From contig JAMCTE010000037.1 of the NCBI GenBank assembly GCA_023381015.1, positions 3,350 through 67,349 on the forward strand: a DNA stretch of 64,000 bases, read 5' to 3'. Source of the DNA: Patescibacteria group bacterium. Lineage in GTDB: Bacteria; Patescibacteriota; Microgenomatia; UBA1406; GWC2-37-13. Under the pieces are notes generated by a model, which saw only the letters and a program-made list of their open reading frames with translations, had not been told where the DNA came from and did not search any database. The first letter of the stretch is position 1. Each line of letters opens with the position of its first letter. Of this stretch, positions 37,206-54,470 are shown one piece after another. The position numbers were made by a program, and so were the translations under genes.

Positions 37206-37856
37206 TTACTCCAAAATAAGCTTTTTTATCATTCTTAATTTTTTTTGAAAATTAAGGCGATTTTCGACAAATTCTTTATAAGCTCTAGGACTTTTTATAG
37301 AAATTTCCACAACGATTTCTTTTAGTATTTTTGGGTTAGTAATAAATTCTCTATATGATGATAATTCCCAGTCTTCGGGTTTTTTAACTAAATTCTTTGT
37401 TGTAGGATTTAAATGAATATAACGAGATACATGCAAAAGCTGTTCATTATTTTTTATTCTTATTACCTTAAAGTTTGATTGCCATAATGGACCTCTCCTT
37501 TTATATTTTGTATTAAAAAATTTAGTATAACTATTTTCGACATCACCAATATATTTTGATAAGATGTTGTTTCTTAGGAGTTTCAATAATAAATGATAAT
37601 GATCGGGCATAATGTTATATGCTAAAAATTTTACTTTTGAAAAATCTACGTCTGAAATCAAACTTTTACAGGTAAAATAAGGATTTTTTCTCAAATATAG
37701 AGAAAAAGGTTTTAATATGAAAAGATCGTTATAATAAAATAGTCTTTTTATAAACTGCTGGCCGTTTTCTTTTTTGATAAAAATACCGTAATTGGCAATA
37801 CTCTTATTAAAAATATGATAGATTTGTCCTTCTTTAAATGTTTCTTTTCTTTTCAT
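37206..37856 (-). mobile_element. REP-associated tyrosine transposase-like (IS200/Y1-type) protein
   Basis: GQIYHIFNKSI, AYNIMPDHYHLLLKLL, RRGPLWQSNFKVIRI, YIHLNP. Confidence 0.88.
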
Positions 37857-42994: not shown

Positions 42995-43102
42995 AAATGT
43001 CAAATCCTAAAACTCAAAACAAAAGCCGCGAAACATCTTGTCCGATTCAAAAGATTTTCGATTCAAGATTTGGATTTACCGTTGAGGATTTGAGTTTTGA
43101 GA
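42995..43102. repeat. Dispersed AAATGTCAAATCC...GAGTTTTGAGAT repeat, copy 2
   Basis: Related to 1957..2052 and 53659..53735. Confidence 0.6.
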
Positions 43103-44155
43103 TATACTTTTATTGTGAAAGAGTATTTTTTGAGAAATTACAGGATTTTCCTATCAATTATTTTTTCATTCATATTTGTATTTTTTATCGTCCCGATTTT
43201 TGCGACTCCTGGCCGGTTGACCGATTTGGCGAAAAATTTTTATTCCTTATTGACTTTGAAATTTTCCCTGCAAAACAATAATCTTTCTCAAAATCAAACC
43301 AACCCTTTTAATCCGCCGACAGTCGAACCAGCACAGGTGTTACCAAACGAGCCTTCCGTAAGCTCAGATGTTGCCAACGGATCATCAGGATCGTTTGAGC
43401 CAACAACAGGTTTGATGAATCAAACCCCTACATCATCTAACCAGGTGCCGACTGCTACCCAGCCAACCAAAACACCAAAACCAACTAAACCTCCCGATGT
43501 TTTTCCGATCGACCCGTCGCTTGCTCGCCCAGGGACAACGACCGATGAAGTTTTTAATATTGCTTCGCAAAAAACCTGCGTTCCAGTACCGGTTTTAAAA
43601 GGCATTGCTTATATAGAATCAGGAAGTTTTTTTGACGTCGTCTCGCCAAAATACTTTTTACTTTATAACTCGGCCAACTGGTGGAACAGTCAATATCTGA
43701 CCGAAGAAAAGCGAGCTTGCGGTGGATACGATTATGATAATGGCAGCGGTTTAATCTTGTCAGACAGTCTTTTTGCCGGATATAACTGTCATTCCGATGG
43801 TTCAACCGGGCCTCAATCGTATATCTATGGCCCAATGCAGGTCAATGGCATAGAACAGGATCAGTTTGGACCAAAAGTCGCCAGCCTTTTAAAGGTGAAT
43901 AATGTTGACCGGAGGATTATTTTAGATGCGATTATGATCGTTGGCTTAGAAGCGAATGATAATGTAAAGCCGACGAGTTGTACCAATTGGACGGCTTGGC
44001 AGGTAGCTAAAGCAGCTTGTGGATATTATGGTAGTTGCGGATTTAAAGACGGCACTTACTACTGCAATACTTTTTGTCGCAACTACGCCAAATTCGGCGG
44101 TAAGCAAAACTGCCAAGCCGCAGTCAATCAAATGCAGGACAACTGTTGGCAATAA
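43097..44155 (+). CDS. Secreted lysozyme-like/SLT-like protein
   Basis: N-terminal TM, PTKTPKPTKPP linker, VLKGIAYIESGSF ... YGPMQVNGIEQDQ; ORF start is a non-ATG codon in a repeat, GTG at 43115 is an alternative. Confidence 0.5.
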   Translation: MRYTFIVKEYFLRNYRIFLSIIFSFIFVFFIVPIFATPGRLTDLAKNFYSLLTLKFSLQNNNLSQNQTNPFNPPTVEPAQVLPNEPSVSSDVANGSSGSFEPTTGLMNQTPTSSNQVPTATQPTKTPKPTKPPDVFPIDPSLARPGTTTDEVFNIASQKTCVPVPVLKGIAYIESGSFFDVVSPKYFLLYNSANWWNSQYLTEEKRACGGYDYDNGSGLILSDSLFAGYNCHSDGSTGPQSYIYGPMQVNGIEQDQFGPKVASLLKVNNVDRRIILDAIMIVGLEANDNVKPTSCTNWTAWQVAKAACGYYGSCGFKDGTYYCNTFCRNYAKFGGKQNCQAAVNQMQDNCWQ

Positions 44156-44263: not shown

Positions 44264-45319
44264 TTATTTGCTGTATTGATGGTAGTAGTTTATGACGTCG
44301 TCACAGTAATTTCTGCCGCTATTATTTTCCGTTACCTGACAAGAGCCATGAAATTTTGCTGCTACTGCCCTGATTGTCGAATCGGGCCAACTGTCGCAAG
44401 ACATCGGTAAGTTGCCGGCGCGGTTTATCAGCTGAACGGCGAAGATGAGAGCGCCGTCAAACAGGACTCTCCGATCGATATTTTTGGGCAGGACTTGAGA
44501 GGTGTATTTTCTGGTTGACGATTGTTCATATGCGGAGACTTGCATGAGTCCCATAATTTGCTGATCATAAGAGGCGGGAATCGGATATTCACAGACCCGT
44601 CCGGCGTCATAGCCGTCGTTCGGGACAATACCGGTCATCGTATCATAGGCGTATCCGTAGCAAGAGTCACCGCTGCCGTTTTGCCACCAACCATAAGTGT
44701 TATATATTTTTATCTTTGAAGCACTGTCATTGATAAAATTCCAGTCACCGGTTTCCTCAAGTTTAAAAGCCATGATCAGGGCTGCCGGGATGCATTCGTA
44801 TTTGGATACTTCCTGAAAAACTCCCATCAGGTTAGTTCCCGGTCTTGTATCCGACGTGATTGGCGGCAGGGGAGTCGGTTTGGGAGTCTTTGTCGGTTTC
44901 GGGGTGTTGACTGGGATAGCCTGTGTTGGGATGTCCGCCGGTAAAGTAGGCTGGATGTCTGATGTCGGTTGATTAAAGTCGGTAGCAGCTTGTTGGTCAT
45001 TGGAAGAGGAATTGACGCTGGCATTATTATCCAAAGGCAAGGCAACGGTGGGTAAATTAGTCAAACCGTTACCGCCGTTAAGATTGCCGCTTCCGAAATC
45101 GCCGTTGGGAGTAAATTGGAGGGTAAAAAGTTTCGTCAAGTTGAGGCTGGGAAATTTGATGTTGGCAAGAAGACCTTTGACGCTAGTTGTTTCTGTCGGC
45201 GCGATGAAAGGGGTAGTAGATAAACGTCCGTACAAAATGACAAAGATGAAAGCGATAGTGATTGAGGTGACAATGCGAATACGATGATTAAACATTTTTT
45301 TTAATAAACCAATAACCAA
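44264..45319 (-). CDS. Secreted lysozyme-like/SLT-like protein, paralogue of 43097..44155
   Basis: PTKTPKPTPLPP linker, ECIPAALIMAFKLEETGDW ... GLMQVSAYEQ, NIDRRVLFDGALI. Confidence 0.55.
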   Translation of the reverse strand: MVIGLLKKMFNHRIRIVTSITIAFIFVILYGRLSTTPFIAPTETTSVKGLLANIKFPSLNLTKLFTLQFTPNGDFGSGNLNGGNGLTNLPTVALPLDNNASVNSSSNDQQAATDFNQPTSDIQPTLPADIPTQAIPVNTPKPTKTPKPTPLPPITSDTRPGTNLMGVFQEVSKYECIPAALIMAFKLEETGDWNFINDSASKIKIYNTYGWWQNGSGDSCYGYAYDTMTGIVPNDGYDAGRVCEYPIPASYDQQIMGLMQVSAYEQSSTRKYTSQVLPKNIDRRVLFDGALIFAVQLINRAGNLPMSCDSWPDSTIRAVAAKFHGSCQVTENNSGRNYCDDVINYYHQYSK

Positions 45320-45521: not shown

Positions 45522-45618
45522 GTCATTCCGGCGAAGGGACGTTTAACGTCCCGAAGGCCGGAATCCAGACGAATTATTGAACAATTTTAAATTGGATCCC
45601 GACTTACGTCGGGATGAC
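45522..45618. repeat. BIME-like paired-hairpin repeat, copy C, with nested extra palindrome
   Basis: GTCATTCCGGCGAA[GGGACGTTTAACGTCCC]GAAGGCCGGAATCCAGAC ... GGATCCCGACTTACGTCGGGATGAC. Confidence 0.85.
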
Positions 45619-45634
45619 TAGGAAAATAATTTCA

Positions 45635-47368
45635 ATGAAAAATAGGAGCGGTCAGGCGGCTGCTTTATTAACTTTAGGATTAGTCATCGTCGGCGGCCTT
45701 TTGACGATTGGGATTTCTTACTTTACCAACAGCCAGAAAATTGCCACCAATTCGAGAGCGGCGTCTTGCACGATGTATGATTGCAGTAAGCAATTCGGTA
45801 GTCAATACACCGGCTCGGTTTGTTATCAAGGATCAGATTTCTATAGTGGCACTTGTGGCGCGACGGGATGTACAGGCAGTCCTTATAGCAATGGTTGGCA
45901 TGGTGGCTGTGTTGCCAGTTCACCTGGTTCAAACCCGCCCGCAAATCCGCCGGGTAACCCTTCTCCTCCAGCTAGCGCAGGAGGTGGTAACGGTGATAGT
46001 TTGACTCCCGACAGGCTTTGCTGCAAAACATATAGCTGTGGTGCGTACGGAGCCAGTCCAAGCCAAATGATGGTCAAAGTTCTTGGTTTTACCGGCACTT
46101 ACAAGGGCGTTGATGGTTATACCAGTTGTGCGACTACCGGTTACAGCAATGTCCAGCAGTGTAGCGCCATACCTGGTGCACCGTCATCAAACGGCGCGAC
46201 AGGATTTGTTGATTGTCCTGGTGCTTCGTCTCCGCCGGGACAAGGTAGTGGTGGGGCAAACGGCAATCCCAACCCACCCGCCAATAGTGGCAACTTTGGC
46301 TACTGTTGTGTCGTTTACAAGCAGGGCCTATATACGAACGTTTATGGGTGCAGCAATTCAAGTTCATATGTGGTCAAGGCGGTCGGTTTTTACGGCACCA
46401 ATAAAGACGGCACCGAGGGATATACCAGTTGCGCGACAACCGGATATGAAAAATATTCCGGCGTACAGCAGGTTGGAGATTGTGCCAATATTTCCGGAGC
46501 AGAGTCTTTGACTTCCGGCGGAACCACGTGCGTTGCCGACGCGAATGCCACACCAGTCCAACAGGGTAGTCCGACACTTGGCGGTCAAGACGGTCCTTGT
46601 TACCCTCCAGGCGATAATCCGAACGATCAAAACAATAAAAATTTTAGCTGCGATTCTCCACTGGTTTGTTCGAGCCAAGACGGCACCGGTTCTTGCTCGA
46701 CGTCTCAAGGAGGATCTTCACAATCAGGCGGCGTACAGAATGCCGGTTTGCAATCGTCAACGTGTCCTAGTGGATTAGCATTTGATCAATGTACTTTCGG
46801 TCAAGGAGACAGTGCTTCTTACGGGCCCGCCACCTGTGGTCCAAATAAGAAAACAGAAAATAATATGCCCGGATGCAACTCTACGCCATCAGGTAAGCAA
46901 TGTAGCGATTTTACCGACATCTATTCTTGCGATGGCTCTAATCAGACATTGAGCTGCGCCTGGGATGGCAAGAAGTGTCTGGATACATCATCTAGCTCTG
47001 CCAACGGCGGAGTAACCAATACCCCCATTCCCTTAAACGTCACCAACGTCACGGTCGATAAGAGTTGCGTCAATCCTGATACTTATACAAAGTGTTCGTC
47101 ACAAAGATCAACGGTCGATGGTTCACAGTGCACCAATCCTAGTGGTTATTATTACTATAAAGGAAAATACTATTCGCCCCTTTGTACAGAGATCGATGTT
47201 CAAAACTACTGTTGCGGATCAACTGCTAACAACAATACTTTTAGCGTAATCAATACCTTCTCTTCTACCTATCATCAAGCGACTACCGATAACGGACAGA
47301 ACTGTTATATGATTCAAGATCCGTCGACCGGCCAACCGGCGTGTCTGGTCATAAATTTACAACCGTAA
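45635..47368 (+). CDS. Large Cys-rich secreted protein with pilin-like N-terminus and internal duplication
   Basis: MKNRSGQAAALLTLGLVIVGGLLTIGISY; two GYTSCATTGY-containing blocks. Confidence 0.6.
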   Translation: MKNRSGQAAALLTLGLVIVGGLLTIGISYFTNSQKIATNSRAASCTMYDCSKQFGSQYTGSVCYQGSDFYSGTCGATGCTGSPYSNGWHGGCVASSPGSNPPANPPGNPSPPASAGGGNGDSLTPDRLCCKTYSCGAYGASPSQMMVKVLGFTGTYKGVDGYTSCATTGYSNVQQCSAIPGAPSSNGATGFVDCPGASSPPGQGSGGANGNPNPPANSGNFGYCCVVYKQGLYTNVYGCSNSSSYVVKAVGFYGTNKDGTEGYTSCATTGYEKYSGVQQVGDCANISGAESLTSGGTTCVADANATPVQQGSPTLGGQDGPCYPPGDNPNDQNNKNFSCDSPLVCSSQDGTGSCSTSQGGSSQSGGVQNAGLQSSTCPSGLAFDQCTFGQGDSASYGPATCGPNKKTENNMPGCNSTPSGKQCSDFTDIYSCDGSNQTLSCAWDGKKCLDTSSSSANGGVTNTPIPLNVTNVTVDKSCVNPDTYTKCSSQRSTVDGSQCTNPSGYYYYKGKYYSPLCTEIDVQNYCCGSTANNNTFSVINTFSSTYHQATTDNGQNCYMIQDPSTGQPACLVINLQP

Positions 47369-47371
47369 AAT

Positions 47372-47794
47372 ATGTTCAATAACATCAAGATAAAAATCTT
47401 ATTGGTGTTAGTTTTTAGTTTTCTTGTCGTTAAATTTGCTTCTCCGGCAATATTTTTGGCCAATACTCCTAGAGTCAATCCTACTATTGTTGCCAACATA
47501 TTCAACGCTCCCAGCACTTTAGCCCAACTGCCAAGCAGCCTGTTTTCGCAAATAAGCAATATTAATTTGTTTAAGACTAGTCCAGCATCCAACAACAACA
47601 CCTTTGCCAATATCAAAGCCGTCGTGCCGGCCGCCAACGTCATATTCCAACCAGTCACTCAAAATGTCTCGGCGGCGGAGAACCCGACGACCGGAGAAAA
47701 ATACATCCAACTGAAAGCCGGTACAAAATATAAAATTTCCGGTTACGTGACGATTGACGGTAAACAATATCCGAAATTAGAAATTGTTCAGTAG
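47372..47794 (+). CDS. Hypothetical secreted protein
   Basis: Signal-like N-terminus, 140 aa, 3 nt after upstream stop. Confidence 0.5.
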   Translation: MFNNIKIKILLVLVFSFLVVKFASPAIFLANTPRVNPTIVANIFNAPSTLAQLPSSLFSQISNINLFKTSPASNNNTFANIKAVVPAANVIFQPVTQNVSAAENPTTGEKYIQLKAGTKYKISGYVTIDGKQYPKLEIVQ

Positions 47795-47839: not shown

Positions 47840-48136
47840 ATGTATATAGGACCTTTTTATTTGGACACTAAAGAAATTTTTTTGATTTTGGCAGCAATTC
47901 TTCTTGGTATAGCTTGGTTTTTCGGTTGGCCATTGTGGTGGTTTGACAAACGGGCCCTTTTGACTTTGGTGATTTTGATGTTGATCACCAAAGGTTTGCT
48001 GCCGTCGATCCATAATGAAGCCTTCTTTATATTGGCGATCGTGACGATATTCGTTTCTTTATATTTGCCGATTTTCCAGGTGGTATTATTTTATTTTGTT
48101 AGTTTTTTGATGTTCAGGTTTTTAAAAGTTATCTAA
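47840..48136 (+). CDS. Hypothetical membrane protein
   Basis: Three hydrophobic segments. Confidence 0.5.
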   Translation: MYIGPFYLDTKEIFLILAAILLGIAWFFGWPLWWFDKRALLTLVILMLITKGLLPSIHNEAFFILAIVTIFVSLYLPIFQVVLFYFVSFLMFRFLKVI

Positions 48137-48182: not shown

Positions 48183-49208
48183 ATGAAAAAAATAAACAAG
48201 ATTTTTATTTTTTTATTGACGGTAGCGGTTTTTATACTGTCGACAAGGCTGGCTTACGGAGGATGCAATAGATTTGGTTGCTGTCGAAATGGAATGCCAA
48301 ACTATAATGGTAAATGCGGTACTGGTGGTGGAGGCGGAGGTGGTGGAGGTGGTGGAGGAACTGCTCCAACCAGTACACCGACGCCGACGCCAACAACAAC
48401 CCAAACGGAATCCAGTTGGAATATTGCACCGATTACTCCGGGAACCGATGATCTTTGCCAGTCGATGACCATATCGGATACCAATATCGGTCCCGGCGAA
48501 AGCTTGGTTGTCACTTCTCAGTCAACCAGTACCGACATCGTCAACTTTGGTTGGTGGCTTTACAACTTGGACAACCTGGATGCAAAAGGCAATCCATTGC
48601 CGATAAAATTTGTCAGCGGCAGCACCAACGTCGCCGGATCGATCAACAAATATCAAGTCTCCACCAATCAGTCGGCTTTGACGATCAATTTCAGCGACGT
48701 AGACAAAAGGGATTATGGTTGGAATTATTACTTGCCAAAACCAAAAAGAATCAGAGTCGACGGTTATTTCAAAAAAGTCGGAGCGACAGCCTGGTCGAAA
48801 TTCAACACCAACTGTTCGAAGAGTTTCAATGCCGCGACGGTCGATCCGACTCCGACCCCCAACGTTAATTGCGTTTGCAGCGCGGCCAATGTCTGTGCCA
48901 CCAGTTGTTTTTTTGACAAATTTGCCTCAGGCGTCACTTATTCATCTTCAATCATGTGCACTTCGCCCGGCTCATACAGTTCGACCCCGACCGACGCCCA
49001 AAAGACACAATTCTGCCGAAATTACCTGAGAACCAAGGGCGACGCCAATGGCGACGGAAAAGTCGACACGCTTGATTATTTCTATTATGTTTCTGGAACA
49101 ACGTTTGGAGCCAAACTGCCGCCGACGGTAAACCTTGATTTTAACGGCGATGGCGTCGTCAGTTCGGCTGATAAAGACATATTAATGAAAATACTGAAAC
49201 CGCAATGA
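48183..49208 (+). CDS. Secreted protein with C-terminal dockerin-like repeats
   Basis: Signal peptide, G12 run and PTPTPT linker, GDANGDGKVDTLDYFYY ... LDFNGDGVVSSADKDILMKIL. Confidence 0.7.
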   Translation: MKKINKIFIFLLTVAVFILSTRLAYGGCNRFGCCRNGMPNYNGKCGTGGGGGGGGGGGGTAPTSTPTPTPTTTQTESSWNIAPITPGTDDLCQSMTISDTNIGPGESLVVTSQSTSTDIVNFGWWLYNLDNLDAKGNPLPIKFVSGSTNVAGSINKYQVSTNQSALTINFSDVDKRDYGWNYYLPKPKRIRVDGYFKKVGATAWSKFNTNCSKSFNAATVDPTPTPNVNCVCSAANVCATSCFFDKFASGVTYSSSIMCTSPGSYSSTPTDAQKTQFCRNYLRTKGDANGDGKVDTLDYFYYVSGTTFGAKLPPTVNLDFNGDGVVSSADKDILMKILKPQ

Positions 49209-51001
49209 AAAATAACTTATTGATAAAGTTAATCGTCATCTTGGGAGTGGTGGTCATTGTTTTGGCTTGGGTGATCAACTATCTTTTCTTGAGTGGAAAA
49301 GCCGCACCGAAATCCCAAGCCGCCGGAGAAACCATTACTCTTGCTTATGATAATGCCGCTCCGACTGTTGCTTCCGGAAGCGATTTGACGGTTTTGTTGA
49401 GAATGACGCCATCGGCCAACATCTATCTTCGCGGTTATACCGTCAAGTTGAAGTTTGACCCTGCCGTTCTTCAAGCCAAGTATATTGATTATCGTTTGGG
49501 TGTGCCGAGCCCGAGCTTTGGCAACACGAGCAGTGATCTGGGGTCGATCAACGCCACCGGTACGATCAACATCCAAGGGGAGATCCAAAACAGCACCGGA
49601 CTTCTCATGGCCGGGACATCGACAGTCGATTTGGTCAGGTTGGTATTTACGGCCAAATCGGCATCGGGGACGACCGTTGCCGGTACAAACGGTAACATAT
49701 ATTATTATCCAGTGACAGGAAACGACGGGACGATCCTGGTTTATAACACGACGATTCCCGATCTGAAGATAAACGGCGGCGCAGCCGCAGCGACTTGTAC
49801 CAGTTTCAGCGATAACTTTACCGGTACGGCTTTGAATAGCGATAATTGGACTTTATGGACTAATAATGATGGGACGGCGCTCGTCGGAACAGGGTCGGCA
49901 ACCTTGAATTTACCAGCCAGCGCAGATGGAACATCAAAAGGAGTCAGTTTAAGCGATGGGGCAAATCATAGCGTCAATGGAGGAGATTATAGCGCCGAGA
50001 TAGTCTTGAATTCAGTGAGCGCTACTACAAGTGAAAAAAAATACGTCAGTTCAGGATTTGATTTACAACAAACAACAGACGATTATAAAACACTTGCTAG
50101 CATATCCCGTTATAGTGATAGCAGTAGGATTACAGGGGGAGCGTTGGTTAACGGTACGTGGGTTTCTCAAGACGTAGATATCGGTTTGACTAATAATACA
50201 CCCGTAAAGGTTAAGATAGAAAAAATTGGAACTTCGGTAAAAACATATTATGACATTATGGATGGTAAAGGTTATCAGCTGATAAAACAGTTTGACAATG
50301 TTTACAACGCTCCTAAAACCAATGTTTATTTTACCGTGGCAAACGGTTCTACCGATTTTCCACAAGGTTCGGCGAAATTCAGTAACTTCGTTTTGACCTG
50401 TGCCGGGACAGGAACAGGAGGTTCAATAAGCCCGACTCCAGGCGGCACGGTGACAGGCAATGTCAGATTGAATTTGAAGCTTAAATTCCAGGGAATCGGC
50501 AAGCAACCGGCCAGCGGTGAAAACTCGATGACCGTAGCCGTGAAAGTAAAACAAGAAGGAGCGAATACTAGCTTTATTACTTCGCAGGGGACTTTCACCG
50601 CCGACAACAACGGGGTTTGGTCGGGGACGGTCGGATTCAACATCAGCGACGTTTCCGGAAAATGGGCAGTCTATGTCAAAGGACCGCAACACATCCAAAA
50701 GAAGATCTGCGACAGCGCGCCGACAGAATCATCGCCTGGCGTATACAACTGCAGCAATGGTAATATTAACTTGGTAGCCGGCGACAACAGTTTTGATTTT
50801 TCCAAGATTGTTCTTTTGTCAGGAGATCTGAATCAGGATGGCGTCGTCGATTCGGTCGACCTGGGAATGGTAAGGAATAATCTCGGCAAAAAAGACGCCG
50901 ATACTTTGAAAAAAGCCGACATCAACCGTGACGGAATCGTCGATACCCAAGATTTTTCTTTGATTTTATCAGCTTTGTCGGTCAGGACGGATCAACTTTA
51001 A
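49205..51001 (+). CDS. Cohesin-like plus dockerin-like surface protein
   Basis: N-terminal TM; LRGYTVKLKFDPAVLQA cohesin-like; GDLNQDGVVDSVDLGMVRNNL ... ADINRDGIVDTQDFSLILSAL. Confidence 0.72.
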   Translation: MKNNLLIKLIVILGVVVIVLAWVINYLFLSGKAAPKSQAAGETITLAYDNAAPTVASGSDLTVLLRMTPSANIYLRGYTVKLKFDPAVLQAKYIDYRLGVPSPSFGNTSSDLGSINATGTINIQGEIQNSTGLLMAGTSTVDLVRLVFTAKSASGTTVAGTNGNIYYYPVTGNDGTILVYNTTIPDLKINGGAAAATCTSFSDNFTGTALNSDNWTLWTNNDGTALVGTGSATLNLPASADGTSKGVSLSDGANHSVNGGDYSAEIVLNSVSATTSEKKYVSSGFDLQQTTDDYKTLASISRYSDSSRITGGALVNGTWVSQDVDIGLTNNTPVKVKIEKIGTSVKTYYDIMDGKGYQLIKQFDNVYNAPKTNVYFTVANGSTDFPQGSAKFSNFVLTCAGTGTGGSISPTPGGTVTGNVRLNLKLKFQGIGKQPASGENSMTVAVKVKQEGANTSFITSQGTFTADNNGVWSGTVGFNISDVSGKWAVYVKGPQHIQKKICDSAPTESSPGVYNCSNGNINLVAGDNSFDFSKIVLLSGDLNQDGVVDSVDLGMVRNNLGKKDADTLKKADINRDGIVDTQDFSLILSALSVRTDQL

Positions 51002-51004
51002 ACT

Positions 51005-51604
51005 ATGGACAATACAAAACAAACCAACGCGGGGAACAGAATTTATATCTACCTTTTAGCGGCTTTTTTTGTCGTCTTTATCGCTACCGGGTTGTTTCTA
51101 TTGATCACCAACAAGCCAGCAAATCCTTCACAAAGCGCTCAGACGACAGCCACCCTGAAAGAGCAACCGACTAGTTTGCCAACGGTAGCACCAAAGAGAG
51201 GATTCGTCAATCTATCGGAAGCCACAGAGAGCGCAGGAATAGTGACGTTTAACGTCGTTGCCGATTCTGACGGCGAAAATGTTTCAGCTTATGACATTCA
51301 GATTGGTTATGATCCCTTGGCTTTTGATTTCCAGTCGGCCGTGTCCATCGACCCGTCTTTTCAAGTCTACCCATTCCATAAGGACAAACTATTGACACTG
51401 ACGGCAGTCAAGGCCACTCAGGATCAAACGCCGTCAATTTTTACCAACAAACCTGTGATAAAATTAAATTTTAAATCTAAGAAGTCTGGCAACTATACTT
51501 TTTCGGTTTTGTCGTCGATTGGCAAAGAAACGACTAAATTTGTCAACACTAAAACCCAGATAATCAATCCGCAAGTTAACGAGATGAACGTTATTGTCAA
51601 ATGA
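51005..51604 (+). CDS. Membrane-anchored cohesin-like protein
   Basis: N-terminal TM; VSAYDIQIGYDPLAFDFQS ... PVIKLNFKSKKSGNYTFSV. Confidence 0.62.
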   Translation: MDNTKQTNAGNRIYIYLLAAFFVVFIATGLFLLITNKPANPSQSAQTTATLKEQPTSLPTVAPKRGFVNLSEATESAGIVTFNVVADSDGENVSAYDIQIGYDPLAFDFQSAVSIDPSFQVYPFHKDKLLTLTAVKATQDQTPSIFTNKPVIKLNFKSKKSGNYTFSVLSSIGKETTKFVNTKTQIINPQVNEMNVIVK

Positions 51605-52230
51605 AAAATGCACTAAAAATCACCATTTTCGCGCTTCTTTTTTTCGTTTTCGTACCTTTGATGTCCCGAGAAATATTGGCCGCCTCTTTATCTTTTGACC
51701 AGACGACGGTTTCCGTTTCAAACGGCGGGACTTTCCAGATCGCCGTCAAGCTCGATCCTTCGCCTGACAGCGTCAGTTCTTCGGATATCTACGTCAACTA
51801 TGACGCAACCGCCCTCAAGGCAACCGCCGTTTCTGCCGGCACCCTTTTTCCGACGGTCACCAATGACATTTCCACATCAGGGAAAGTTTATATCGCCGGT
51901 TTGGTTAACGATACGGCCTCTTCTGTTTCCAGTGCCGGAACGGTGGCAACGATTACTTTCCAGGCATTAAAGGAATCAACGGTGACTTTGACGTTTGATT
52001 GCGCGTCTTCTAAAGTCGTCAAGAACGACGTCAACGCCACCAATGTTTTGAACTGTTCTTCAAACGGAACGAGTTCGGTGACGATCGGAACGGGAAGCAG
52101 CGGAACGACAAATCCGACTCCGACTTCAGGCACTCTGCCGCAAAGCGGCGTTTTTGATAATGTGGTAAAATTTGCTGTACCGGGGGCAATATTATTATTC
52201 CTTGGTAGTGCCTTGAGGCTGGTATTATAA
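51601..52230 (+). CDS. Cohesin-like protein with LPQSG-TM C-terminus
   Basis: SLSFDQTTVSVSNGGTFQIAVKLDPSPDSVSSSDIYVNYDATALKA; C-terminal LPQSGVFDNVVKFAVPGAILLFLGSALRLVL. Confidence 0.68.
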   Translation: MKNALKITIFALLFFVFVPLMSREILAASLSFDQTTVSVSNGGTFQIAVKLDPSPDSVSSSDIYVNYDATALKATAVSAGTLFPTVTNDISTSGKVYIAGLVNDTASSVSSAGTVATITFQALKESTVTLTFDCASSKVVKNDVNATNVLNCSSNGTSSVTIGTGSSGTTNPTPTSGTLPQSGVFDNVVKFAVPGAILLFLGSALRLVL

Positions 52231-52881
52231 ATGAACATGAATAATCCGGCTCTAAAAAAAGGTTTGGCCATCTTTATCGGAGTGATCCTTTTTATTGTTC
52301 TGGCCTTGGCGGCTTTCAGGATCTTCGGCACCAATGCCGCCGATCTCGAGCCATCGGACGTGGTTGTCGCCAATATCGACAAGAATTCAGCCCGGTTGTC
52401 TTGGGCGACCGGAGTCGATACCCAAGCCGTCGTCGAATACGGGACTTCGCCGACCGCCCTCAACTTTTTCGCTCCCGAAGCGGCTAAAGCTAAGAGTCAC
52501 ACCCTAGATCTGACTTTGCTGTCGCCGGCGACGACATACTACTTTGACGTCAGAATCGGCGACAAAAAGTACGACAACGGCGGAGTGCCTTGGACGTTCA
52601 CTACCAAAGGCGTCGACCAGTCGGTAGTAGTGCCTAGTCCGACGCCGGTTGCCTCAGGCGCAACCACCGGAACAATCTCTCCAACGCCTGTCCAAAAACT
52701 TGAGATTCCAGATAATACTTCTAGCTGTACGGAGACTGATTGTGCTCAAATAAAGGCAAAATTAGGCAAGGGTTGTTCGACTCAGGACTATTTCCTTTGC
52801 TTGAATAAGACGGCCGGTACGCCGACGCCGACAGCTTCGTCGACGGCAACCCCAACGCTCACGCCGACGCCGACTCCTTAA
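52231..52881 (+). CDS. Fibronectin type III-like anchored protein
   Basis: N-terminal TM; ARLSWATGVDTQAVVEYGTSP ... LSPATTYYFDVRIGDK; PTPT tail. Confidence 0.65.
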   Translation: MNMNNPALKKGLAIFIGVILFIVLALAAFRIFGTNAADLEPSDVVVANIDKNSARLSWATGVDTQAVVEYGTSPTALNFFAPEAAKAKSHTLDLTLLSPATTYYFDVRIGDKKYDNGGVPWTFTTKGVDQSVVVPSPTPVASGATTGTISPTPVQKLEIPDNTSSCTETDCAQIKAKLGKGCSTQDYFLCLNKTAGTPTPTASSTATPTLTPTPTP

Positions 52882-54027: not shown

Positions 54028-54148
54028 CCAATAACCAAGATTACGATAACCAAACAAGCTCCAATATTCAATTATCAATGACCAAACTCCAGAGCATTGG
54101 ATATTGCTTATTGTAATTTGTTTGGATTACTTGGCTATTGGTTATTGG
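54024..54148. repeat. Long imperfect palindrome (CCAATAACCAA...TTGGTTATTGG)
   Basis: Related to 45308..45461. Confidence 0.6.
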
Positions 54149-54470
54149 AAATTAATTGGATGTCTTTCTGATCGATTACCCCATCATGATTTAAATCGCA
54201 GTCTGAAGCGTAAATAGGATTGTCTCCGGTGACGGTTTTTCCGATGACTTTGTTCCAGCAAGGGTCGGATTTTTTGCAGCCCAGGACGGAAGAAACGATG
54301 TTGGCATCCAGGGCGTCGATTTTGCCGTCCCAGTTGATGTCTTTCGGGTTTCTTTCTTGGGATTGTTGCGACGGTCCCGACGGTGAGGGAGCCAGTAATT
54401 TGGTCGATATCATGACGACGACGAATGCGAAAAAGACAATCAGGACGATAACAACAATAATATTTTTCAT
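54135..54470 (-). CDS. Membrane-anchored dockerin-like protein
   Basis: N-terminal TM; KDINWDGKIDALDANIVSSVL ... CDLNHDGVIDQKDIQLISN. Confidence 0.72.
   Translation of the reverse strand: MKNIIVVIVLIVFFAFVVVMISTKLLAPSPSGPSQQSQERNPKDINWDGKIDALDANIVSSVLGCKKSDPCWNKVIGKTVTGDNPIYASDCDLNHDGVIDQKDIQLISNNQ

Follow-up and report, generated by a model that had tools for sequence, protein, structure and literature searches.

The locus belongs to the genome of a member of Ca. Roizmanbacteria (1.06 Mb searched; 84% complete). Five open reading frames occupy positions 48183-52881 of the window, that is, of the whole 64,000-nucleotide stretch of DNA that was analysed. They sit where the original prediction had placed them, and neighbouring frames either overlap or are separated by no more than 3 nt. 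P1 and P2, as well as P3 and P4, are joined by ATGA overlaps, a 3-nt gap lies between P2 and P3, and at the P4/P5 junction TAA is followed by ATG without a spacer. The ORF coordinates therefore agree with the proposed coupling of the five genes by ATGA overlaps or gaps of 0-3 nt. The operon and the genes surrounding it are as follows:

P140, 47372-47794, + strand: protein of 140 aa with a hydrophobic N-terminus, syntenic, immediately 5' of P98
P98, 47840-48136, + strand: multi-helix membrane protein of 98 aa, syntenic with the operon
P1, 48183-49208, + strand: signal peptide, Gly-rich/TP linker, Ig-like domain and C-terminal dockerin
P2, 49205-51001, + strand: N-terminal membrane anchor, cohesin, ConA/lectin-like beta-sandwich, X-module and dockerin
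P3, 51005-51604, + strand: N-terminal transmembrane anchor followed by a cohesin
P4, 51601-52230, + strand: signal peptide, cohesin, LPQSG motif and C-terminal transmembrane helix
P5, 52231-52881, + strand: N-terminal transmembrane anchor, FN3 domain and Thr/Pro-rich tail
P6, 54135-54470, - strand: small membrane-anchored dockerin protein, the third dockerin in the genome

The original prediction did not include the lectin-like beta-sandwich and the X-module of P2, the third dockerin gene (54135-54470, - strand) or the two syntenic genes located 5' of the operon (47372-47794 and 47840-48136). Searches of the operon genes against NCBIfam returned no match.

A profile search across the 1.06 Mb revealed four cohesins and three dockerins, and no more. 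The dockerins of P1, P2 and P6 scored 25.0, 40.1 and 45.5 bits, respectively, against Dockerin_1 (PF00404; Pfam cut-off of 22.9 bits). In every dockerin of the window both EF-loops display the D/N/D...D pattern at positions 1, 3, 5 and 12; all three proteins combine the profile score with the two Ca-binding F-hand loops expected of type I dockerins. The type-I-like dockerin of P1 (49035-49196) contains the canonical Ca loops DANGDGKVDTLD and DFNGDGVVSSAD, and the Ig-like domain of the same protein maps to ~48426-48857; among relatives the dockerin is conserved and the N-terminal part is variable. In P2 the X-module (50450-50821) and the dockerin (50822-50968) constitute an X-module-dockerin unit (XDoc), the model of which resembles the X-dockerin of Clostridium thermocellum CipA (2b59_B, TMt 0.63; AlphaFold2/Foldseek). 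The first Ca loop of XDoc is irregular in many relatives. P6 carries a Cys-containing insert between its two loops, and its orthologues were found in 8 of the 56 relatives searched.

The cohesins of the operon are located at positions 49325-49780 (P2), 51209-51589 (P3) and 51703-52044 (P4). Relative to the Pfam cut-off for Cohesin (PF00963; 24.1 bits), P4 scored high (42.2 bits), P3 fell just below the threshold as a protein (23.7 bits) and reached 24.4 bits in the genome search, and the P2 match was weak yet significant (E 3.2e-5; 24.5 bits with its frame). Profile searches against PDB matched P4 to cohesins and P3 to, among others, the cohesin of C. perfringens NagJ. The original prediction had named the lack of a predicted cohesin fold as the outcome that would speak against it; instead, the P3 model matches solved cohesins, with 2vo8 (TMt 0.83) as the best hit and 2jh2 (TMt 0.80) also retrieved (AlphaFold2/Foldseek). 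Cohesin or cohesin-dockerin entries make up nearly all of its top 50 PDB matches, in keeping with the nine-strand jelly-roll typical of the fold. When the stretch comprising P2 XDoc and P3 was modelled as a read-through with AlphaFold2, both domains were well modelled (pLDDT 88.7); the pTM of 0.62 does not settle their docking. Pfam scores, PDB profile matches and Foldseek thus agree, supporting the earlier view that the cohesin and dockerin folds are genuine. Between the cohesin and X-module of P2, AlphaFold2 and Foldseek placed a ConA/lectin-like beta-sandwich (49781-50425), which, judging by the model, is possibly a sugar binder.

P4 looks like a sortase substrate and may be anchored as one. 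Its LPQSG motif (52135-52149) is followed by a helix and a weakly basic C-terminal tail; across 30 aligned proteins the L and G of the motif are invariant, the P is nearly so, and the adjoining helix is conserved. The genome contains two sortases, and sortases were also found in cohesin-free genomes. The FN3 domain of P5 (~52348-52566; Pfam Pur_ac_phosph_N/fn3) belongs to a protein that displays ~60-75% identity within the genus.

Intact frames in the same order recur in dozens of genomes at roughly 30-75% identity, which places the gene set far above chance. Loci were retrieved from related genomes with P98 only, at least 4 kb of downstream sequence being required (n=35). Both a cohesin and a dockerin lie downstream of P98 in 26 of these 35 loci, bearing out the conservation in related Patescibacteria that had been put forward for checking; some loci are reduced to cohesin and FN3 genes, or to FN3 alone. 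P98 itself is 77-92% identical in most relatives and is retained even where the locus contains no cohesin or dockerin. Neither P98 (no significant match) nor P140 could be assigned to a family in Pfam or NCBIfam, and it is uncertain whether the two proteins are members of the cohesin-dockerin system. At the level of genomes the two modules co-occur (both in 76, cohesin only in 10, dockerin only in 4, neither in 6; Fisher p 0.001), some relatives possessing a cohesin without a detectable dockerin, or vice versa.

Co-variation was expressed as partial distance correlations after background correction, the full set being small (12-13 loci) and its loci related by descent. Correlation was seen between the dockerin of P1 and the cohesin of P2 (0.44-0.48, p<=0.0005) and between the XDoc of P2 and the cohesin of P3 (0.38-0.70, p<=0.0005). 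Despite sharing one gene, the P2 cohesin and P2 XDoc gave values of -0.13 to -0.16 under all controls, and the P2 cohesin against the P2 dockerin alone gave -0.29 to -0.38. With peptidase M50 as the sole control (21 loci), P2 XDoc correlated with the P4 cohesin at 0.46-0.54 and with that of P3 at 0.38, so that the P4 cohesin is a possible alternative partner. Gene order points in the same direction: a cohesin-bearing gene follows the XDoc gene in 40 of 44 cases, compared to 18+/-3 after shuffling. For plain dockerin genes, the next gene encodes a cohesin in 18 of 33 cases, which is no excess over shuffling (p 0.16), and the argument from gene order is therefore limited to XDoc-cohesin pairs. 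The statistics support pairing of the P1 dockerin with the P2 cohesin and of the XDoc of P2 with the cohesin of P3, and predict the wiring P1 -> P2 -> P3. The self-assembly suggested originally is consistent with both lines of evidence as far as assembly within the operon is concerned; what they indicate, however, is specific pairs rather than a free-for-all.

Taken together, these observations make it reasonably likely that the products of the operon form a compact cohesin-dockerin assembly at the cell surface, one that is free of enzymes and possibly binds glycans. P1 would present an exchangeable Ig-like domain and dock onto P2, a putative mini-scaffoldin that offers a single cohesin to the P1 dockerin and also carries the lectin-like domain. 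The X-module-dockerin of P2 would in turn enter the cohesin that P3 holds at the membrane, with the P4 cohesin as a further possible site, while P5 and perhaps P6 may contribute additional anchored parts to the same surface layer. Assembly would presumably depend on Ca2+ and could involve anchoring by sortase. The likeliest task of such a structure would be to grip a glycan-bearing surface, be it a host cell, a neighbour cell or a polymer, through putative sugar binding and adhesion. More tentatively, gene order might mirror the order of assembly: the gene after each X-dockerin gene would encode the cognate cohesin, and XDoc-cohesin gene pairs would add links to a stepwise chain of exchangeable modules, P1 -> P2 -> P3/P4, that grips other cells. 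Roizmanbacteria would then possess a dedicated non-cellulosomal adhesion machine, an extension that we consider less likely than not.

The reading available in the literature is that of a minimal cellulosome breaking down polysaccharides, as stated for Roizmanbacterium and Shapirobacterales (PMC9123182). The module types are identical and the order within P2 (cohesin, sugar-binding-like fold, X-dockerin) is scaffoldin-like. However, neither Pfam nor the whole-genome search detected a catalytic domain on the three dockerin proteins of this 84% complete genome, and at the loci of relatives the 25 families listed for 86 dockerin proteins include no glycoside hydrolase. Each cohesin protein of the window genome carries one cohesin, those of related loci at most two, and neither CAZyme-bearing dockerin proteins nor a scaffoldin with several cohesins, the features defining a cellulosome, were found. 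A dockerin-bearing enzyme could be missed since the genome is only 84% complete; nevertheless, with four cohesins and three dockerins all devoid of catalytic domains, a cellulosome is very improbable. The original prediction of a scaffold without catalytic domains holds for the window set but not for all relatives, as a few dockerin proteins at related loci, two S8 (subtilase) and two M4 (thermolysin-type) among the 86, carry peptidases, the sole enzymes among the families listed. It could be argued on these grounds that relatives dock peptidases by the cell and that the window set is the enzyme-free remainder of a surface protease platform. Yet the peptidases are rare and missing from the dockerin set of the window genome, most dockerin proteins bearing Ig-like, beta-helix or no known domains, and we consider this scenario highly unlikely.

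P2 carries both a cohesin and a dockerin and could in principle polymerize head-to-tail, giving a surface fibre with P1 as its cap and P3/P4 as its anchors. The two modules do not co-vary with each other, while each co-varies with domains of other genes, which leaves little room for such a polymer. A less improbable, albeit still unlikely, alternative is that the modules have decayed or been repurposed, with cohesins serving as generic spacers of beta-sandwich fold and dockerins as caps that bind Ca, both within independent surface adhesins that do not bind each other. The proximity of the P2 and P3 cohesins to the Pfam threshold, the irregular first Ca loop of many XDocs and the genomes possessing a single partner would all be compatible with decay. 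Conversely, all dockerins of the window have perfect Ca loops, cohesins and dockerins co-occur, XDoc-cohesin gene pairs are ordered, and co-variation is pair-specific and not seen between domains of one gene.

Our literature search found no publications on surface attachment in Roizmanbacteria. The role of cohesins and dockerins beyond biomass degradation is a long-standing question, and the sets of Patescibacteria have so far been read as cellulosomes. With a self-contained inventory of four cohesins and three dockerins, and with predicted partners already named, a few recombinant domains would suffice to test the question, and confirmation would establish a conserved surface assembly in ultra-small bacteria known nearly exclusively through metagenomes.

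The clostridial cellulosome, with its CipA X-dockerin, type II cohesin anchors and ScaA/ScaB adaptors, follows the scheme proposed here of a dockerin unit inserting into a scaffoldin cohesin. P2 likewise combines a fold akin to sugar-binding modules with an X-dockerin at its end, and anchored cohesin proteins accompany it; the XDoc fold matches 2b59 and 5g5d, and profile matches include ScaB adaptors. In contrast to the clostridial system, P2 bears a single cohesin rather than an array, the set includes no dockerin-bearing enzymes and no SLH anchor that we could see, and a single short operon contains all of the parts, in a genome of only some 1 Mb. Non-cellulosomal cohesins are also found in C. 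perfringens (NagJ/X82 and GH33), and these are the closest PDB relatives of P3 in both sequence and fold (2jh2, 2vo8); they reside, however, on glycoside hydrolases, whereas the cohesins of the operon reside on membrane-anchored, enzyme-free proteins. Archaea such as ANME and Archaeoglobus possess cohesins and dockerins without presumed cellulose degradation and without a large multi-cohesin scaffoldin (PMC9012536). The operon likewise lacks such a scaffoldin, and 2xdh is among the fold matches, but the ANME proteins differ between species whereas the operon is a syntenic, translationally coupled set conserved across a family. Further precedents are the cohesin-dockerin sets of the Microgenomates Ca. 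Roizmanbacterium and Shapirobacterales, termed "cellulosomes"; a metaproteomic study reported that a related Shapirobacterales expresses cohesin and dockerin proteins (PMC9123182). Module types and bacterial group match those of the operon. Since the latter is enzyme-free and ordered, we dispute the published reading: the gene content does not fit a cellulosome and argues for a non-cellulosomal cohesin-dockerin system.

The five ORFs at 48183–52881 (+) are translationally coupled, as the original prediction held, with junctions of −4, +3, −4 and 0 nt. Their products (P1–P5), together with a further dockerin protein (P6), are as follows:

P1, in 48183–52881 (+): secreted Ig-like protein with a C-terminal dockerin
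P2, in 48183–52881 (+): predicted N-terminal anchor, cohesin, 210-residue beta-sandwich, X-module and dockerin
P3, in 48183–52881 (+): predicted N-anchored cohesin
P4, in 48183–52881 (+): cohesin, LPQSG and C-terminal helix
P5, in 48183–52881 (+): predicted N-anchored FN3
P6, 54135–54470 (−): small predicted membrane-anchored dockerin protein

The N-terminal hydrophobic segment of P2 may be an anchor or a cleaved signal. Orthologues of P6 are present, at varying positions, in eight other genomes. A search of the whole window genome (1.06 Mb, 84% complete) recovered two sortases, three dockerins (P1, P2 and P6) and four cohesins, of which three belong to P2, P3 and P4 and the fourth is encoded on another contig. 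The gene for the fourth cohesin (fetched locus L002, 1327–1887 (−); G000:C2:12219–12479), which carries an LPTSG tail, has as neighbours the genes for a protein with a SpoIID domain and for a multi-helix membrane protein that matches no Pfam family; several genomes of the genus contain cohesin frames of 186–194 aa resembling it.

The cohesin and dockerin modules proposed for these proteins are real, as judged from Foldseek matches and from PDB profile matches for P3, P4 and the X-module plus dockerin of P2 (XDoc). In the profile searches, P4 matched type II adaptor and scaffoldin cohesins (E 3e-7), P3 the Clostridium perfringens NagJ cohesin (E 0.002) and XDoc the dockerins of solved complexes (E 5e-6). 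P2 XDoc and P3, the genes of which share a frame, were modelled with AlphaFold2 as one stretch with the stop read as Q (pLDDT 88.7, pTM 0.62). The P3 part has the anticipated cohesin fold in this model, resembling solved cohesins 2vo8 (TMt 0.83), 2jh2 (0.80) and 6kgd/6kge (0.74), and the XDoc part resembles the CipA X-dockerin 2b59_B (TMt 0.63). The middle domain of P2 is predicted to adopt a lectin-like fold (pLDDT 84.9, pTM 0.85), with similarity to ConA-like lectins (ERGIC-53, legume lectins) and related lyase/glucanase sandwiches (TM ∼0.5–0.6). Each of the three dockerins contains two canonical calcium loops. The specificity of type I dockerins usually resides at loop positions 10–11, and these differ among P1 (T-L/S-A), P2 (S-V/T-Q) and P6 (A-L/Q-K).

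Among 96 genomes of relatives, 86 have cohesins (117/381 across the phylum) and 80 have dockerins, their presence being associated (76 both, 10 cohesin only, 4 dockerin only, 6 neither; Fisher p 0.001). Conservation of the operon, proposed in the original prediction as a check, was borne out in loci of Ca. Roizmanbacteria (Microgenomates) fetched via P98, the neighbouring 98-aa membrane protein gene, and thus not chosen by cohesin. Of the 35 that extend for 4 kb or more downstream, 26 contained genes for both modules, two for cohesin alone, one for dockerin alone and six for neither, the FN3 gene still being present in two of these six. The usual gene order is [dockerin proteins] - [cohesin-]XDoc - cohesin - cohesin with LPxSG/TG - FN3, and synteny on the side of M50 peptidase, deformylase, GT2 and YchF is maintained across the genus.

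P98 itself (47840–48136 (+)) is 77–92% identical in most relatives, whereas its neighbours are 30–75% identical; it has no significant Pfam or NCBIfam match, and a divergent second copy is present in some loci (L070, L073, L086). Two related exported proteins (43097–44155 (+) and 44264–45319 (−)), conserved beside the operon in the genus, have no Pfam match and by eye are perhaps lysozyme-like. Upstream of the operon, part of the genus shares a syntenic gene (45614–47368 (+)) for a 584-aa Cys-rich protein of no known family with a pilin-like hydrophobic N-terminus. An IS200/Y1 transposase-like gene (PF01797, 43 bits) is located at 37206–37856 (−).

Gene order and co-variation point to particular partners. 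An XDoc gene is directly followed by a cohesin-only gene in 37 of 44 cases (shuffled 17±3) and by any cohesin-bearing gene in 40 of 44 (shuffled 18±3), figures that do not represent a probability because the loci are related by descent. The XDoc–cohesin pair is repeated in expanded loci (e.g. L053, L060, L078, L079, L081); plain dockerin genes display no such order (18/33, p 0.16). Distance matrices were correlated against a background of FN3 and P98, or of M50 peptidase. Where all parts were present (12–13 loci), P2 XDoc and P3 cohesin correlated at 0.53–0.59; the value was 0.69–0.70 when 24 loci were used and 0.38 for 21 loci under the M50 control. P1 dockerin and P2 cohesin correlated at 0.44–0.48 (all p≤0.0005). 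Linked transfer of neighbouring DNA predicts the strongest correlation within one gene, which was not seen; P2 cohesin and P2 XDoc gave no positive value (−0.13 to −0.16). P1 dockerin and P3 cohesin were near zero or below (+0.03 to −0.15), and P1 dockerin and P4 cohesin varied with the control (+0.37 to −0.19). The pairs P1 dockerin–P2 cohesin and P2 XDoc–P3 cohesin are supported by these sequence comparisons; P4 cohesin (0.24–0.54 with XDoc) is a possible second partner of XDoc.

We infer that the exported proteins would come together on the outer face of the cell. P3 would be a socket fixed to the cell, and P4 a further one, provided that either of the sortases cleaves it. P2 would join these sockets via XDoc, presenting its lectin-like domain, which may bind sugar, and one socket, into which the P1 dockerin would enter; the P1 head would be exchangeable, and the whole might serve adhesion.

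The system is very probably not a cellulosome. None of the three dockerin proteins found in the 84%-complete genome carries a catalytic domain, in line with the prediction for the five-gene set. Dockerin_1 is matched by 60, and Cohesin by 13, of 86 dockerin proteins from related loci; the 25 families listed for them include peptidases (S8 and M4, two each), beta-helix, VWA, LamG, CARDB and Hint (the latter in 1/86), and no glycoside hydrolase. One dockerin-like protein (locus L056, 5838–8267 (−)) has a subtilase domain, and a P1 orthologue (locus L057, 10428–11855) has, by eye, a Hint-like N-terminal stretch that may be self-processing. Cohesin and dockerin proteins of a member of the Shapirobacterales, expressed according to a metaproteomic study, have been interpreted as a cellulosome, which is cited for Roizmanbacterium too (PMC9123182). 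Two essential proteins of Saccharibacteria, an envelope protein with a dockerin domain and an FN3 protein, have been proposed to target host glycans (PMC10633639).
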